From NCBI GenBank assembly GCA_022361535.1, contig JAKSAU010000541.1, forward strand, positions 1 through 12,459: DNA of 12,459 nt, in the 5' to 3' direction. Source of the DNA: Desulfobacterales bacterium (GTDB taxonomy: Bacteria; Desulfobacterota; Desulfobacteria; Desulfobacterales; Desulfobacteraceae). Below, piece by piece: positions 3,644-12,459 of the stretch (position 1 is its first letter; each line of letters begins with the position of its first letter). The notes beneath the pieces were generated by a model that was not told the origin of the DNA, ran no database searches, and was given only the letters and a program-made list of their open reading frames with translations. Position numbers and translations under genes: made by a program.

Positions 3644-4263
3644 ATTCGTTTGTACTGAGAATAAAGTTCCATGACCTTTTTTACATAGGCCTGGGTTTCT
3701 GCATAGGGTGGTATCTCACGGTACCGGTCAACTGCGGTGGGACCGGCATTATAGGCGGCAAGGGCAAGCCCCAGTTCCCTATTGTAACGGTTTATCAACC
3801 GCTTTAGATACCGGGTGCCACCCATTATATTCTGGGACGGATCAAATGGATTTGAAATATTGAGGGCCGACTCGTTTTCAGGCATAATCTGCATCAACCC
3901 CCTGGCCCCTTTCTTGGAAACGGCTTTGGGATTGAAGCTGGACTCCACCTGAATCACCGCCTTAATTAGAGCCGCTTCCACGCCGTATCTTTTACCGGCT
4001 TTTTGAATGATCTTGTCATACGACCTAGGTGCGGACCTTACATTTTTTGCTGACTTTTCTTTAACCCTGATATAGACCGTGTATCCTGCCGTAGTGGGGG
4101 TGTTGGTAAAGTGAACTACCCCGTCAGCGTCAATATACCTGTAAATATTGCCCTGACCTAAACATGGGCTGGACAGGGCAACTAGAACCCAGACGGAAAC
4201 GGCAAGCGCATTGGTAAAAGCAAGCCTGCCCAAAGTGGTCTTATTTTTTATTCCGCTTTTCAA
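3640..4263 (-). CDS. DUF4124 / SLT-domain lytic transglycosylase
   Basis: Lytic transglycosylases cleave the MurNAc-GlcNAc bond of peptidoglycan and leave a 1,6-anhydro end. This 207-residue protein has a secretion signal (positive start, hydrophobic 16-32, cleavage near CLG-QG), a DUF4124-type module at 38-65 (IYRYIDADGVVHFTNTP) and a C-terminal SLT domain at about 83-200. The catalytic glutamate is Glu107 in QVESSFN; GARGLMQIMP (119-128), GGTRYLKRL and LALAAYNAGP (166-175) are the other conserved motifs. It probably acts in the periplasm. The start is TTG at 4263-4261, preceded by AGGG six bases upstream; no in-frame ATG lies before residue 124, which is within the catalytic domain. This start lies 23 bases inside the preceding gene, suggesting translational coupling. 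CLG could hint at a lipobox (SSPC), but the proline makes a lipoprotein unlikely. Confidence 0.93.
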   Translation of the reverse strand: MKSGIKNKTTLGRLAFTNALAVSVWVLVALSSPCLGQGNIYRYIDADGVVHFTNTPTTAGYTVYIRVKEKSAKNVRSAPRSYDKIIQKAGKRYGVEAALIKAVIQVESSFNPKAVSKKGARGLMQIMPENESALNISNPFDPSQNIMGGTRYLKRLINRYNRELGLALAAYNAGPTAVDRYREIPPYAETQAYVKKVMELYSQYKRI

Positions 4264-4627
4264 TCCTTTCCCTGTATTCCTTTAGTACCAGCTTTTCCGG
4301 AAAACTTGGCTTGGCTACATACTGCCCCGTATTATCCAGGAACGTATCAACCAGTCCTTCAAAGATCTCGTCTTTTTCATGGTCCATGATCATATTCCGT
4401 TCAACCTTGTATTGATAGACGATTGGGGACCCCAGGGTCTCAAGAATATCATCAAAGGTATCTTTGGCCATGTGTTCTATGGTAAACAACTCCTGCACTA
4501 CCGGAATTTCCATTTTAGCGGTCATTATGACAACATAGGCATCTGCCCCTATTTTCCTGGAATCGTCAAAAATTTCAAGACAATGATTGTTTTCAAGTTC
4601 AATTTTTTTAAAGGGTGCTCTTTCCAT
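4241..4627 (-). CDS. Conserved-looking hypothetical protein, 128 aa
   Basis: I do not recognise the family. The protein is soluble, acidic in the middle and basic at the end (RERIEKRNKK), with no signal peptide, membrane segment, cysteine cluster or catalytic motif. The first half looks like alternating beta strands (CLEIFDDSR, ADAYVVIMTAKMEIPV). A charged helix and a second strand follow (PIVYQYKVERNMIMDHE). It is the middle gene of an apparent minus-strand operon, 58 bases after the EndoQ-UvrD gene, and it overlaps the transglycosylase start by 23 bases. The ribosome site before ATG 4627 is weak (AGAAAAG), so expression may depend on the upstream gene. The tight overlaps on the coding strand support it as real, in preference to the antisense open frame at 4379-4783. 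Function is unknown. Confidence 0.75.
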   Translation of the reverse strand: MERAPFKKIELENNHCLEIFDDSRKIGADAYVVIMTAKMEIPVVQELFTIEHMAKDTFDDILETLGSPIVYQYKVERNMIMDHEKDEIFEGLVDTFLDNTGQYVAKPSFPEKLVLKEYRERIEKRNKK

Positions 4628-4685: not shown

Positions 4686-7600
4686 TCAGAACAATTCCAA
4701 CTGGACTTCAGTTTTTTTCTTTTCTTTCTTTAGCCGGGCAGCCTGCTCGTACCGGGCCAGTTCTTTTTCAATATCGTCAATAAAACAAGACCGTTCACGG
4801 GGCTTGTCGATGCCGAATATGCGTCTTTTTTTTGCATATGTCAAACATAGAATATCCATAGCCCGGGTCATGGCTACATAAAACAGACGGCGTTCTTCCT
4901 CCGGATCTTCAACAGTCTTACCGTCTCGGGCATAGGGAATCATTCCGGTCTCGCATCCGGTTACAAAGACCACGGGGAACTCAAGCCCCTTTGCCGCATG
5001 CATAGTCATAAGAGAGACTTTCTCCACACCCTTTTCCAGAAAATCTATATCCTGATCCAGTCGAAGATTATCAAGTAGATCTTTTGGATTTGGATAAATA
5101 CCTGCCAAGGCCTTAAGGCGATTCCAAGCTTCTGACAGGTGTTCATCTGATTCAATCGTTTTGGAAATATTTTGCCATTGCCCAATGGTCTCCAGGAGCA
5201 TCGTGCTGTCTTTTGGCAGATGATGCGCGTTGATCCGGTCATTGTACTTTTCCAATAGCTTCAGGTCTTCAGGTGTTGCTCGACCCAGTACCAGGCGCAT
5301 CAACCCCAAGGTTTCTTTGATGCCGTCCATATCTTCCCAGGTCTGGCGGTCAGCAGTTTGATATGGAATGCCTGCTTTTTCAAATGCCCTGGCAAAGGTC
5401 TCACACTGGTTCCGGGTCCTGTACAATACTGCAAAGTCTGAGAACGAATATTCCTTCCCATCTTCATTTTGACCCATGCCCGTATCCATGGACAAAAACG
5501 ACAAACCACCCACCATTTGTTCAATCATTTTTCCTACGGCCACGGCTTCAGCACTTTGGGTGGCGCTTTCCTTGATCACAACCTGCTGCGTGCCATCCAG
5601 GCTCGAATAAATTTTGCGGTCCTGGGTGTTATCAGCACTCCCGGTAGAGATCATCTGGTATGAAGCATCCAGAATTGTCTGGGTGGATCTATAGTTTTGT
5701 TTCAAACGTATCTTTTCACATCCCGGATAATCGGAAGCAAACTGATTAAAAAACCGGTTGTCCGATCCCCTGAATCCGTAAATGGATTGATCAGGATCGC
5801 CAATCACAAAAATACGGTTTTCGAATGCCAACAGTTTTACCAATTCATATTGTCCCAAGTTCAAATCCTGGTACTCGTCCACAAATATATAGGAAAATCG
5901 TTCCCTTACCTTTCGGCAAAGTGCCGCATCACGTGAAAACAACTTAAAACATATGAAAATTAGGTCTTCAAAATCTGCAAGGTTCTTTTCCTCGCAGAGT
6001 TGATTATAGGCCTTATAAATTGGGGCAAGGGCTTGTTCAAAGTCACCTGCGACCTTGGAAAGATCATCTTCAGGTCCTAAAAGCTGCTGTTTGCAAAGGC
6101 TGATCCAATTGTCTATCTGTTTGAGTCGTTTCTTTGGCGTCTTATCTCCATTCATTGCTTTGTCTGCAGCCGCCTTAAGAATCTCAATACGATGACCGTC
6201 TTCCATCAGCCCTCTGTCAAATCCAGAGTAAGCTTTCAGCATTTTAAGGCAAAACCCGTGAAACGTGGCTGCCATCACCTGACCTTCTCCCTGGGGCATA
6301 AAGGCTTTAATGCGGTGGGCAAGCTCTCTTGCTGCTTTATTGGTAAACGTCAATGCAAGGATACTCTCGGGCGACACGTTCTGATCCGATACCAGCCAGG
6401 CGATCCTGGCTGTTAATGTTCTTGTTTTTCCGGTACCCGGGCCTGCCTGAATCAATACAGCTTTAGAATCGGATTTCACAGCCTGTTCCTGCTCCGGATT
6501 CAATCCATCCAGGACGTGCTTTGGTATTGAAGGCGCATTGGATTGTGCCTTCTTTTTGCGCAGTTTTACCTTGGGTTCAGGTTTCTTTGCAGGTGCGCTG
6601 TTCGGTTTAACTGTCTTTGTTCGCTTCTTTTTCTTGGGCAGGTCAAAAAGCAGGTTTTTCTCCCCCCTGATGGCCTCTTTTTCTTCCCGGGTAAAGATCT
6701 TGACCTTACCGTATTCCCCGTCATAGCCCGGGTCGATATAAAGGTCGCCGGCCCGCATTTTTTCAATAGCCTCTGCAAGCAGGGGAACGCCTGAGGTTTC
6801 GATTTCTTCGATAGATTTTTCAGTCAGAATGGGCAATTCAGGCCCTAAAGCCTCTATGGCCTTATCATAGTAACCTGTGACTTTCTTTGTTTTGGGACCT
6901 ACCTCAAAAATTTCAGACAAGATATCGGCTAAGGGTACAACGTAGCTGTGAGGATGCCTGTTCTCAGGTACATACCCTTCAGGGCGGCTGGCCAATTCTC
7001 GCACCCGGTATAACACACCAAGGGTTAAAGGTTTGCCGCATTCCGGACACAGGCCGCCAAGGGCAGCTGTTTCATCAGGATTTAACCGGACGTTGCATTT
7101 TCTATGACCGTCATAGTGATATTTTCCCTGGTCCGGGTACATATCCAAGGTACCGCGGTATGCTTTGAGATCATGGGTTTCAAGGGCATTGCGGATTGCG
7201 GAAAAACTTAAGTCAGTATCAAACATCGAGGCGTTTCGCCCTAAAAAGCCAGGTGAATGGGCATCGGAATTAGAAATCAACCGGACATTGTCCAAATTTT
7301 CCACCCGCCAGTTCATTGGGGGATCAGAGGACAATCCGGTTTCACAGGCAAAGATATGATGGCTTAAATCGGAAAAGCACTCTTCAATGGTATCAAATCC
7401 GGATTTGGATCCGAACATGGAAAACCAAGGGGTCCAGATATGGGCAGGTACAAAAAAACCTCGATCAGAAATCTCCAGCATGATTTCAAGAAGATCTCTT
7501 GCATCCAGGCCTAATATAGGGCGGCCGTCGGATTTAATATTTCCAATGGCATCCAGCCGGGCGTTGAATCGTTTGGCCGTTTCAATATCCGGCATGTAAA

Positions 7601-7931
7601 TCAGGTTATGGTTTTTGCGGACCCTGTCATCCTTCTTATAGATATTTGAAATTTCAGCCTGCAGGATAAAACGCACCTGACCCCGGCAGGATTCGGGTAC
7701 TTTGGGGTCAATCTCTTTTGCAATCTCTTTTTTTAATGAGAATAGCCCCGGTTCGGTTTCTTCAAGTTTTGTTTCAAGTTCCTCCATCCAGGCCGGATGG
7801 GTAAAGTCACCTGTTCCAACAAGGCTTAACCCCTTGACCTGAGCGGCATGGTAAAGGTGTTCAAGGTCAAGATTTTTCGCCGTGGCCCTGGAATATTTGG
7901 AGTGAATGTGTAAATCTGCTGTAAATTTCAT
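4686..7931 (-). CDS. EndoQ-like PHP nuclease fused to UvrD/REP-type helicase
   Basis: This 1081-residue protein joins two DNA-repair enzymes. Residues 1-425 match the EndoQ (TIGR00375-type) family, which nicks DNA 5' of deaminated bases such as uracil and hypoxanthine. PHP metal ligands are visible: His8/His10 (DLHIHS), Asp42 and His45 (GTGDFTHP), Glu93, His164, Glu197 (CETGLSSD) and Asp223/His225 (NSDAHSP). A zinc finger HRKC...CPEC (276-298) follows, then LTLGVLYRVRELASRPEGY. Residues 430-470 are a Lys/Pro-rich linker. Residues 475-1060 are a superfamily 1A helicase: GLNPEQEQAV, Walker A AGPGTGKT (496-503), TFTNKAA, VDEYQDL (684-690), GDPDQSIYGFRG (711-722), QNYRST, TMHAAKGLEF and EERRLFYVAMTRA. 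The protein ends in QLELF, a sliding-clamp binding motif. ATG 7931 has an AAGGG ribosome site. It is the first gene of an apparent operon. That the helicase acts at the EndoQ nick is inference. Confidence 0.93.
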   Translation of the reverse strand: MKFTADLHIHSKYSRATAKNLDLEHLYHAAQVKGLSLVGTGDFTHPAWMEELETKLEETEPGLFSLKKEIAKEIDPKVPESCRGQVRFILQAEISNIYKKDDRVRKNHNLIYMPDIETAKRFNARLDAIGNIKSDGRPILGLDARDLLEIMLEISDRGFFVPAHIWTPWFSMFGSKSGFDTIEECFSDLSHHIFACETGLSSDPPMNWRVENLDNVRLISNSDAHSPGFLGRNASMFDTDLSFSAIRNALETHDLKAYRGTLDMYPDQGKYHYDGHRKCNVRLNPDETAALGGLCPECGKPLTLGVLYRVRELASRPEGYVPENRHPHSYVVPLADILSEIFEVGPKTKKVTGYYDKAIEALGPELPILTEKSIEEIETSGVPLLAEAIEKMRAGDLYIDPGYDGEYGKVKIFTREEKEAIRGEKNLLFDLPKKKKRTKTVKPNSAPAKKPEPKVKLRKKKAQSNAPSIPKHVLDGLNPEQEQAVKSDSKAVLIQAGPGTGKTRTLTARIAWLVSDQNVSPESILALTFTNKAARELAHRIKAFMPQGEGQVMAATFHGFCLKMLKAYSGFDRGLMEDGHRIEILKAAADKAMNGDKTPKKRLKQIDNWISLCKQQLLGPEDDLSKVAGDFEQALAPIYKAYNQLCEEKNLADFEDLIFICFKLFSRDAALCRKVRERFSYIFVDEYQDLNLGQYELVKLLAFENRIFVIGDPDQSIYGFRGSDNRFFNQFASDYPGCEKIRLKQNYRSTQTILDASYQMISTGSADNTQDRKIYSSLDGTQQVVIKESATQSAEAVAVGKMIEQMVGGLSFLSMDTGMGQNEDGKEYSFSDFAVLYRTRNQCETFARAFEKAGIPYQTADRQTWEDMDGIKETLGLMRLVLGRATPEDLKLLEKYNDRINAHHLPKDSTMLLETIGQWQNISKTIESDEHLSEAWNRLKALAGIYPNPKDLLDNLRLDQDIDFLEKGVEKVSLMTMHAAKGLEFPVVFVTGCETGMIPYARDGKTVEDPEEERRLFYVAMTRAMDILCLTYAKKRRIFGIDKPRERSCFIDDIEKELARYEQAARLKKEKKKTEVQLELF

Positions 7932-10692: not shown

Positions 10693-11043
10693 ATGAAAGT
10701 GACACATTATACAGATATTCCCCCAATTGCCATGAACAGCGATATTGTTAAAAACGTTGCCGGACGTGTACTAATCGGCAAAGAAGACGGTGCTGCAAAT
10801 TTTTGTATGCGCAGGTTTGAGATCGGTCCTGAGGGATTTACGCCCAAACACAGCCATGACTGGGAACATGAAGTGTTTGTCCTTGAAGGCAAGGGAGAAG
10901 TCTTTATTGAAGATCAATGGCACTCTATCAAAAACGGTTCGGCCGTATATGTACCGCCGAATGCAGAACACCAGTTTAGAAACACCTCTGACTCTGCATT
11001 TGCCTTTCTTTGCCTGGTGCCGTCACAGGCACCGGAGATGTAA
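10693..11043 (+). CDS. Small cupin-domain protein
   Basis: The 116-residue protein is a single cupin barrel. Motif 1 is GFTPKHSHDWEHEVFVLEGKG, abbreviated here by its metal ligands His53, His55 and Glu60, with the glycine at 68. Motif 2 is YVPPNAEHQFRN (86-97) with His93 as the fourth ligand. All four ligands are present, so it should bind a metal (Fe, Mn, Ni or Zn). Single-domain cupins of this kind may be dioxygenases, isomerases or simple sensor proteins, and the reaction is not predictable. AAGGAG lies nine bases before the ATG. The next gene starts only two bases after the stop and its ribosome site is inside this gene, so the two are almost certainly co-translated and may work on the same substrate. 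Confidence 0.92.
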   Translation: MKVTHYTDIPPIAMNSDIVKNVAGRVLIGKEDGAANFCMRRFEIGPEGFTPKHSHDWEHEVFVLEGKGEVFIEDQWHSIKNGSAVYVPPNAEHQFRNTSDSAFAFLCLVPSQAPEM

Positions 11044-11045
11044 CC

Positions 11046-12459
11046 ATGCCCCTCAGGACCTGCGTCAGCCCGGAAGGGACTTTTAAAGTCGGCATCCATA
11101 ACCCCGGCTTTGAGGTGGAAAACCTAAGACAGAATACCCAGAAAGATGTCCTGGGAAGGCTTTTTGACGATAGCCCTGTAGAAAACCAAATCAATTTTCC
11201 ATCATCTACAGTTAGTGCAGATAAAACCGATAGGATCTATGAAATTGCCAATGCATTTCCTTTCAGGGGCACCACATTTATCAATTCAGCCTGGGCAGAT
11301 AGGAAAGCGGCAAAACCGGATGCTATAGCATTGCCTCCGAGCCCAGACTGCTCCCTGACAAAAAATCTGGTTGAATGGCAAAACAAAGAAACTAAAGAAG
11401 CGCCTTCCCTGCCCCCAGTGTTGGACCTTCTTCCGCGGCCATTGCTGCTGGCCCTGGCCCAGGCGTCCACAGATCCGAAAGAACTGGCCGCCCTGGCTGC
11501 TAAATCCTGCGACCTTCTTTTTGACAGTGGCAAGGATATGCCACCGACAGGCGTAGCATTTAATGAAATAGAACCTGGAAGACCCGAGCCTGTCATACAC
11601 GATCATGACCTCTATGATATCCTGGGCAATAATCCCTGCCTGCCTGATTCATATAAAGAGGTAATGGTCTTAAGACCCGGCATACAGGGGAACAGCGAAA
11701 TCATAGGTGAGGCGATAGAAGATACTCATGTGTTCGAGTACCTGCGACGCAATTCATATATTCCATGGGGACATTTTGCCTCAAATATGGCCAATGATGA
11801 AATCCGGTACAACGTAAAAGACCTCACCCTTTCAGATATATCAGGCATCCGTCACCTGTATTACCAACGCGTTTACGTACGACTGGCCCAGGAATTAGGA
11901 CTGAAATTGCCTGCAACACAAAGGCCTTTTACCCCCCGGGAACTTGAAGCACTGCGGCTTTCTGTTGCAAAGGCTGTTGAGTCAGAAAAAACAGATGCAC
12001 TTTTTTTTAATTCCTCTCTTTGGGGATGGAACTATGGATTCGGATTTGCACAGTCCGGTGACAGGCTGCATGCCTCACACCAAATGATCCACCAGCAAAA
12101 TGCCATGGTGCCGGAAAAGATTTCTGACGACCAGGGAAATCCCTACCACTGTTTTTCCTGCGGAGACTTGGTAACTGATTTTATCCAGGACTACAAAGCC
12201 ACTTATGACCAAGAATTTTTCCCGGCCTATATCAGGGCCATTCAATCCAACCAGCGTACAGACATGAACGACCAGGGCTCGGACTCCTTGATCGTCTGGG
12301 AAGATGAACAGGTCATGCTCTTTGTGCCCAAGGCCCAGGTCAGTGAATGGGAGCTTCAGTTGATGACCAAAACTGTCTGTCCCCATATCCTGGCAGCGGA
12401 CACGCCCACCCGCCAAAGCCTGGATCGTGCCATGCTTATTGCCCTTCAAACCCTTGATA
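11046..12459 (+). CDS. GalT/HIT-superfamily-like protein (3' end outside window)
   Basis: An open frame of 471 codons without stop runs from ATG 11046 to the window end. It has an upstream GGAG and lies two bases after the cupin stop. I read it as a distant relative of galactose-1-phosphate uridylyltransferase and the HIT superfamily, from two segments. One is LHASHQMIHQQNAMVP (341-356), which lines up with the GalT signature G-A-S-x-P-H-P-H-x-Q; His349 falls on the nucleophile and Gln351 on the conserved glutamine. The other is VWEDEQVMLFVPKAQVSEWE (417-436), resembling the second GalT half-domain start (strand, VP, W-x-x-E). The first histidine of the motif is Met347 here. CxxC at 369-372 (YHCFSCGD) may be a metal site. 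The first 200 residues are unfamiliar; RRNSYIPWGHFASNM and LRPGIQGN are distinctive. No signal peptide. The function is a weak inference. Confidence 0.65.
   Translation, partial: MPLRTCVSPEGTFKVGIHNPGFEVENLRQNTQKDVLGRLFDDSPVENQINFPSSTVSADKTDRIYEIANAFPFRGTTFINSAWADRKAAKPDAIALPPSPDCSLTKNLVEWQNKETKEAPSLPPVLDLLPRPLLLALAQASTDPKELAALAAKSCDLLFDSGKDMPPTGVAFNEIEPGRPEPVIHDHDLYDILGNNPCLPDSYKEVMVLRPGIQGNSEIIGEAIEDTHVFEYLRRNSYIPWGHFASNMANDEIRYNVKDLTLSDISGIRHLYYQRVYVRLAQELGLKLPATQRPFTPRELEALRLSVAKAVESEKTDALFFNSSLWGWNYGFGFAQSGDRLHASHQMIHQQNAMVPEKISDDQGNPYHCFSCGDLVTDFIQDYKATYDQEFFPAYIRAIQSNQRTDMNDQGSDSLIVWEDEQVMLFVPKAQVSEWELQLMTKTVCPHILAADTPTRQSLDRAMLIALQTLD

Follow-up and report, generated by a model that had tools for sequence, protein, structure and literature searches.

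What does a helicase do when it is joined to endonuclease Q (EndoQ)? The EndoQ nick falls 5' of the lesion and leaves a 3'-OH and a 5'-phosphate (PMC4357722), and the relevant sections of the same source leave open what comes after it. The question is raised by a gene on contig JAKSAU010000541.1 of a Desulfobacterales bacterium (GCA_022361535.1), a stretch of 12,459 nucleotides (nt) referred to here as the window. Positions 4686-7931 of its minus strand hold a single uninterrupted open reading frame (ORF) of 1081 aa with an ATG start, in which an EndoQ-type nuclease is followed by a UvrD-type helicase. This EndoQ-UvrD joint polypeptide is confirmed as real. The catalytic residues of both halves are intact and invariant, the pairing is also found without fusion, and a clamp-type motif is present. 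We lean toward reading the product as a repair protein that acts on deaminated bases, is tethered to the clamp and couples incision with unwinding.

An EndoQ and a UvrD-like motor in one polypeptide

The gene and its parts are as follows.

4686..7931, minus strand: EndoQ-UvrD fusion gene, 1081 aa, ATG start
6693..7931, minus strand: EndoQ half, residues 1-413, with the PHP nuclease domain, the zinc ribbon (H276, C279, C295, C298) and the C-terminal part
6645..6662, minus strand: former C-terminal clamp motif of EndoQ, decayed, EKNLLF, residues 424-429
6525..6659, minus strand: Lys/Pro-rich disordered linker, residues 425-469 (predicted local distance difference test, pLDDT, <50), varying in length and sequence among fusions
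4746..6521, minus strand: UvrD/PcrA-type helicase half, residues 471-1062
5037..5279, minus strand: 2B region, shortened, about residues 885-965, from a length comparison and a gap in the phmmer alignment with PcrA
4689..4703, minus strand: QLELF at the C-terminus (residues 1077-1081), in a disordered tail and predicted to bind the sliding clamp (consensus from PMC12309361)

The fusion is not a chance join, since the best 120 of 7996 scored matches from a protein collection, taken as the candidates sharing most words with the query, each cover at least 80% of the 1081 residues. These 120 are 972-1168 aa long with a query cover of 80-100%, and the database names of fusion proteins include "UvrD-helicase domain-containing protein". 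Changes in the two halves are mostly silent: their ratios of nonsynonymous to synonymous rates (dN/dS) are 0.04 and 0.10 against locus L001 and 0.07 and 0.14 against L005, with dS near saturation and the ratio undefined for both halves against L002 and L003. The Lys/Pro linker named in the original prediction is present between the halves, its richness in these residues being judged by eye.

Residues 4-413 match PfuEndoQ over the length of the latter (phmmer E 1e-46 to 1e-48), and 127/376 aligned residues are identical. In this alignment D6, H8, H10, E76, H84 and H139 of PfuEndoQ correspond to D6, H8, H10, E93, H108 and H164 of the window protein, and E167, G169, S171, D193 and H195 to E197, G199, S201, D223 and H225. 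In EndoQ, E76, H84 and H139 are zinc ligands required for activity, while H139, G169 and S171 form a steric obstacle against normal bases (PMC8307549). The window residues D6, H8, H10, D42, E93, H108, H164, E197, G199, S201, D223 and H225, together with the four ligands of the zinc ribbon, are identical in 49/49 fusion and 12/12 operon-labelled alignment rows, the latter including, here as in the EndoQ motif count and the helicase tree, locus L171, whose endoQ adjoins only a helicase piece. Apart from N221, the tested EndoQ residues show one departure among the 92 stand-alone rows, at H8 in one row; N221 is variable, being kept in 45/49 fusion, 12/12 operon-labelled and 84/92 stand-alone rows. 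The zinc ligands align with H276, C279, C295 and C298, a His-Cys3 site that recurs in all 49 fusion, 12 operon-labelled and 92 stand-alone rows, whereas Pfu has Cys4.

The half thus shows the marks of a COG1379-type EndoQ: the fold spans its whole length, the PHP metal ligands and steric-gate residues are present, and a zinc ribbon, in His-Cys3 form, follows the PHP domain. The PHP metal ligands claimed for it from the sequence are all in place, as is the EndoQ zinc finger, although with a different ligand set from that of Pfu. The pocket, whose loss had been named as an outcome that would speak against the prediction, retains its published active-site and steric-gate residues as far as these were checked. 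Two further EndoQs, L102:5540-7252 and L048:33-1637, have about 150 and 200 extra residues, respectively, before the PHP domain.

In the second half, residues 472-1059 match PcrA/UvrD (phmmer). Motor motifs Q, I, Ia, II, III, IV, V and VI of superfamily 1A (SF1A) are all present, and K502, D685, E686, Q715, R748 and R1023 are identical in 47/47 fused helicases. Neither half looks like a relic, since the tested catalytic residues of both are the same across the fusions. The 2B subdomain is not of full UvrD/PcrA size, with 106 residues between two fixed alignment columns vs 152-173 in 17 other PcrA/UvrD-type helicases, and its length ranges from 14 to 165 residues across 47 fusions. Because of this short 2B, the half is classed as a UvrD-like motor and not as a full UvrD; the "complete superfamily 1A helicase" first proposed is complete in its motor motifs and incomplete in 2B. 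In UvrD relatives 2B restrains the motor, and its erosion in the fused helicase may matter. The half reaches 391.2 bits against the pcrA NCBIfam equivalog, whose cut-off is 911.2, and is likewise under the cut-offs of the uvrD and rep models, so that it fails these equivalog criteria for a PcrA, UvrD or Rep orthologue. A second PcrA/UvrD-type helicase is present in 8/8 fusion genomes searched. The result lists of VIA-align were filled by the motor half, and other folds missing from them carry no weight.

Occurrence, pairing without fusion and the clamp motif

The fusion is common in the phylum of the Desulfobacterales genome G001. Among 395 genomes sampled from that phylum, 255 have a match at E <=0.001 to TIGR00375, an NCBIfam hypothetical equivalog, and 102 of these 255 EndoQ-positive genomes have a frame of at least 850 aa, the frame length being what their fusion status rests on. 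The long frames that were read all contain both halves (28 in a first batch, then 22/22, then 18/18, with two genomes common to the last two batches). The statement in the original prediction that such fusions occur in related bacteria is supported by these frames. The remaining 153 EndoQ-positive genomes include some partial or weak matches and one unclassified genome, G132 (frame 426 aa). Frames of 1227-1387 aa, above the usual fusion length, are found in G401, G245, G271 and G382 (L254, L246 and L253 among them), and these may contain a further domain.

Around the window gene, an NTP transferase and a CxxCxxCC protein are kept as neighbours in 9 loci each, and an SLT transglycosylase in 17 loci (two from one genome; one a 32% match beside a stand-alone EndoQ). 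Such kept housekeeping neighbours fit vertical, chromosomal inheritance. The window ORFs at 11010-12458 and 4241-4627 have no Pfam match, and relatives of them are found in 9 and 7 fetched loci (tblastn).

In Nitrospirota the two proteins are paired without being joined. An EndoQ match is present in 84/198 genomes, nearly all as short frames, with one fusion (G557). Flanks of about 1 kb or more downstream of endoQ were read in 40 Nitrospirota genomes, and in 11 of them an intact UvrD-like helicase ORF directly follows endoQ on the same strand; this batch was partly chosen for frames like those of UBA2600, and 11/40 is therefore no rate. The gap between the genes is 0 nt in seven of the 11, -4 (a 4-nt overlap) in two, and 16 and 23 nt once each. 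At L153-L156, L158, L159 and L162 the ATG of the helicase comes immediately after the stop codon of endoQ, with zero bases between. On the named Nitrospirae contig of L050, an endoQ tail at the contig edge stands just before such a helicase, and at L171 (6157-10876) what follows endoQ is a fragment of a helicase, about 67 residues long, the complete helicase ORF lying 2.7 kb further along. That the helicase has its own gene immediately downstream of endoQ in some Nitrospirota speaks for the two proteins working together.

A second shared feature is a predicted sliding-clamp-binding motif. The consensus of this motif is QL[S/D]LF, or more generally QxxLF (PMC12309361). Archaeal EndoQ binds PCNA by a C-terminal PCNA-interacting protein (PIP) box, binding stimulates nicking, and bacterial EndoQs were noted in 2016 to bear a clamp motif near the C-terminus (PMC4858679; PMC3820547). 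In the window protein QLELF (1077-1081), a feature absent from the original prediction, fits this consensus and sits in a low-confidence tail, predicted to be accessible, where it is expected to bind the sliding clamp. Scored as Q..[LMI][FLYM] within five residues of the end, the motif closes 42/45 complete fusions of the first set and 50/63 overall. The three misses among the first 45 are L086, with QLHLF seven residues before the end, L091, ending in QLKFF, and L097, ending in ASLF. The same motif ends 70/90 stand-alone EndoQs, 12/12 operon-labelled EndoQs and 12/12 adjacent helicases, L050 included. It is found at the end of 0/17 other PcrA/UvrD-type helicases (22, less five motif-bearing second copies of the helicases of L171, L166, L156, L162 and L158), and its background rate is 1/634 ORFs of at least 200 aa.

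A Q..LF-like motif also occurs at the EndoQ-helicase junction in 24/45 fusions (shuffled mean 2.5, maximum 7/45). In the window this junction motif has decayed to EKNLLF, whereas the protein end reads QLELF. The inner clamp motif seems free to decay, given one at the helicase end; the decay at the junction and the retention at the terminus locate the clamp motif at the helicase end.

The trees suggest how the pair may have arisen. In an EndoQ tree of 73 rows hand-picked from 153, a branch with a support of 98.9 sets apart the EndoQs of the fusions plus L077 and L107. Another EndoQ tree gives the same grouping at 97, also holding L106, which is labelled stand-alone there although its contig ends inside the gene. 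An EndoQ clade of fusions that excludes L077 and L107 is rejected by the approximately unbiased test (p-AU 3e-10). The helicase tree (64/77 rows, near-copies dropped by hand) places the 17 other PcrA/UvrD-type helicases on one side and all fused and adjacent ones opposite (Shimodaira-Hasegawa-like approximate likelihood ratio test 99.8), these 17 being pcrA-model matches from 14 genomes and not the full set of UvrD relatives; within it, the fused helicases stand on one side at 94 and the adjacent helicases on one side at 72. This pattern fits one EndoQ-tied helicase lineage, fused once and lost at times. An alternative possibility is that helicases may have been recruited to EndoQ repeatedly.

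Glycosylase and EndoV genes alongside the fusion

Whether the fusion replaces other repair enzymes was assessed from matches at E <=0.001 to PF03167, for uracil-DNA glycosylase (UDG), and PF04493, for EndoV. A UDG-family gene is present in 84/102 fusion, 150/153 other EndoQ-positive and 119/140 EndoQ-negative genomes. UDG is thus missing from a larger share of the fusion genomes than of the other EndoQ-positive ones (Fisher p 1e-5), but not from a larger share than of the EndoQ-negative ones (p 0.60). That EndoQ replaces UDG as a general rule is rejected, with UDG in 234/255 EndoQ-positive genomes and a Fisher p of 0.04 towards co-occurrence. No dependence of the fusion on EndoV was seen, EndoV being found in 38/102 fusion, 73/153 other EndoQ-positive and 67/140 EndoQ-negative genomes.

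The UDG-less genomes are not scattered. When 66 fused EndoQs are placed in a tree, 15 of these 18 genomes fall into a single clade (support 90) to which no UDG-bearing genome belongs, and the remaining three stand apart; 15 genomes of one lineage speak for one event, not fifteen. The clade comprises L237, L239-L241, L243, L244, L246-L248, L250-L254 and L227, and no PF03167 or PF04493 match was found in it, the search being limited to these two families, with other glycosylases not searched. EndoV is present in one (G052) of the 18 UDG-less fusion genomes, a set for which genome completeness is not given and of which three are on contigs >3 Mb. The fusion therefore usually adds to glycosylase repair, and one lineage has it without detectable UDG or EndoV. 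Repair without a separate glycosylase, as first envisaged, holds for some genomes (18/102) and not for most. The UDG-less clade speaks for the fusion as a repair enzyme for deaminated bases, and it provides a natural test of EndoQ-borne uracil repair in bacteria.

Mechanism, alternatives and known systems

From the families of its two halves, the protein would be expected to nick at lesions, to move with 3'-5' polarity and to bind the clamp; the coupling of nicking and unwinding is a step that we only infer. The EndoQ half would flip the lesion nucleotide (uracil, hypoxanthine or abasic) into its pocket and nick the phosphodiester on the 5' side of it, giving a 3'-OH and a 5'-phosphate. The UvrD-type motor, kept near by the flexible linker, would load at the nick and travel 3' to 5' on the intact strand, peeling away the lesion-bearing 5' end. 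A polymerase could then extend the 3'-OH across the gap, and the flap could be taken off by a 5' nuclease. Binding of QLELF to the sliding clamp would direct the enzyme to DNA that is nicked or freshly replicated. In nucleotide excision repair it is UvrD that takes off the cut piece (PMC2997466), and a scheme from 2015 already has a helicase acting once EndoQ and EndoV have cut (PMC4357722). In most genomes the protein would act beside UDG; in the one clade where neither UDG nor EndoV was found, it may start uracil repair alone.

A fuller version of this proposal is advanced tentatively, as possible and somewhat doubtful. It sees a single-polypeptide excision-repair machine combining recognition, 5' incision, displacement and clamp tether, related to a two-gene module kept separate in part of another phylum, in which the clamp motif would have passed from the nuclease end to the helicase end at fusion, and which would be the main starter of uracil repair in the UDG- and EndoV-less clade. 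Such a protein would also unite a nuclease and a motor on a single clamp tether. The EndoQ-linked helicase, whether fused or encoded directly after endoQ, is a named candidate for the post-nick step, and the fusion protein would offer a purified system for testing it. No paper on an EndoQ-helicase fusion appeared among those listed in searches of the open-licence PubMed Central (PMC) literature; the remark in the original prediction that no biochemical study of the joint activity was known agrees with this, and that prediction as a whole is partly supported.

A number of observations weigh against the coupled reading. The EndoQ half scores 181.5 bits, under the curated TIGR00375 cut-off of 326.6, and is for this reason not assigned to TIGR00375; the cut-off is passed by 0/395 phylum genomes and 2/14 control genomes. 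The predicted full-length structure has a template modelling score (pTM) of 0.54 and does not inform the relative placement of the halves. Against a general need for the helicase stand the 153/255 EndoQ-positive genomes without a frame of at least 850 aa, the 40 stand-alone EndoQ loci of the Desulfobacterota sample (L052-L080, L102-L105, L107-L109, L118-L121), of which 0/40 have an adjacent helicase, and L077 and L107, EndoQs within the fusion clade with no helicase nearby. Nine further named Nitrospirota or Nitrospinota loci have no adjacent helicase, and the partial selection of the Nitrospirota batch limits what its pairs can tell. A single EndoQ clade of fusions and operons is rejected (p-AU 0.009 with L171 as operon, 0.001 without it), and the helicase tree split is not clean, since its EndoQ-linked side also takes in the complete helicase of L171, which does not adjoin endoQ and matches the pcrA model best in its genome. 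Most fusion genomes have UDG, and only 38/102 have EndoV, which makes the second cut in the helicase scheme of 2015. Finally, the clamp motif count drops from 42/45 to 50/63: fusions from UDG-less genomes have it in 8/18, and several of the 10 misses have H for Q, reading HLSLF or HLSLL.

Other readings of the same protein were considered. It is rather unlikely that unwinding comes first, with a clamp-tethered motor on newly copied or stalled DNA exposing single-stranded stretches for the EndoQ half to search for deaminated bases. PfuEndoQ does cut uracil and hypoxanthine in single-stranded DNA (PMC11354406), the linker is predicted to be flexible, and 50/63 fusions have the clamp motif where the helicase ends; however, abasic sites are poorly cut in single strands (PMC6202378, PMC11354406), and the sequence gives no order for the two steps. 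Mere co-delivery, in which one polypeptide with its clamp tether carries two repair enzymes without their treating a lesion jointly in a single event, would agree with the varied, disordered linker and with the many EndoQ genomes, and two EndoQs inside the fusion clade, that are without the helicase. We judge it quite unlikely, as the general helicase is a different protein: the 8/8 fusion genomes searched have another PcrA/UvrD-type helicase, grouping apart.

A changed substrate of the EndoQ half (another lesion, a ribonucleotide, flap or R-loop), served by the motor, is improbable. The limited identity to PfuEndoQ (127/376) and the His-Cys3 zinc site would allow it, and the residue comparison of the pocket covers the published gate only, but the metal site and steric gate (H164, G199, S201) are the same in 49/49 fusions and 92/92 stand-alone EndoQs, and the stand-alone B. 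pumilus EndoQ is reported active (cited in PMC6202378). A role in defence, directed at phage or plasmid DNA bearing modified bases, is highly improbable: Gabija GajB models do give scores with the motor half, as with UvrD relatives, and a review holds that bacterial EndoQ may join antiviral defence (PMC8307549), but the EndoQ half has no tblastn match in 72,556 plasmid or 50,697 phage records, a full-length phage search matched 176 records with none over 80% of the query and the five listed matching the motor half, housekeeping neighbours are kept, and fusion-size frames occur in 102/255 EndoQ genomes of the phylum sample.

The window protein can be set beside four known systems. With Gabija GajB it shares a UvrD-like motor; PADLOC matches fall only in the motor half (best 25 of 53), and no GajA-like family was found in the ten neighbouring ORFs scanned, the ORF at 2-640 lying outside that scan. 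Among the UvrD/PcrA/Rep SF1A helicases, the fused motor groups apart from 17 others of 14 genomes, has a shortened 2B, is below the NCBIfam equivalog cut-offs and ends in a clamp motif where none of the 17 does. One of the 2015 EndoQ repair schemes (PMC4357722) likewise has an EndoQ nick followed by a helicase, although there the helicase is separate and unnamed and EndoV makes the second cut. From EndoQ itself (PfuEndoQ, 5zb8/7k30; B. pumilus EndoQ), the window protein differs by its fused helicase, its His-Cys3 zinc site, and a clamp motif that stands at the helicase end while the motif at the EndoQ end has decayed.

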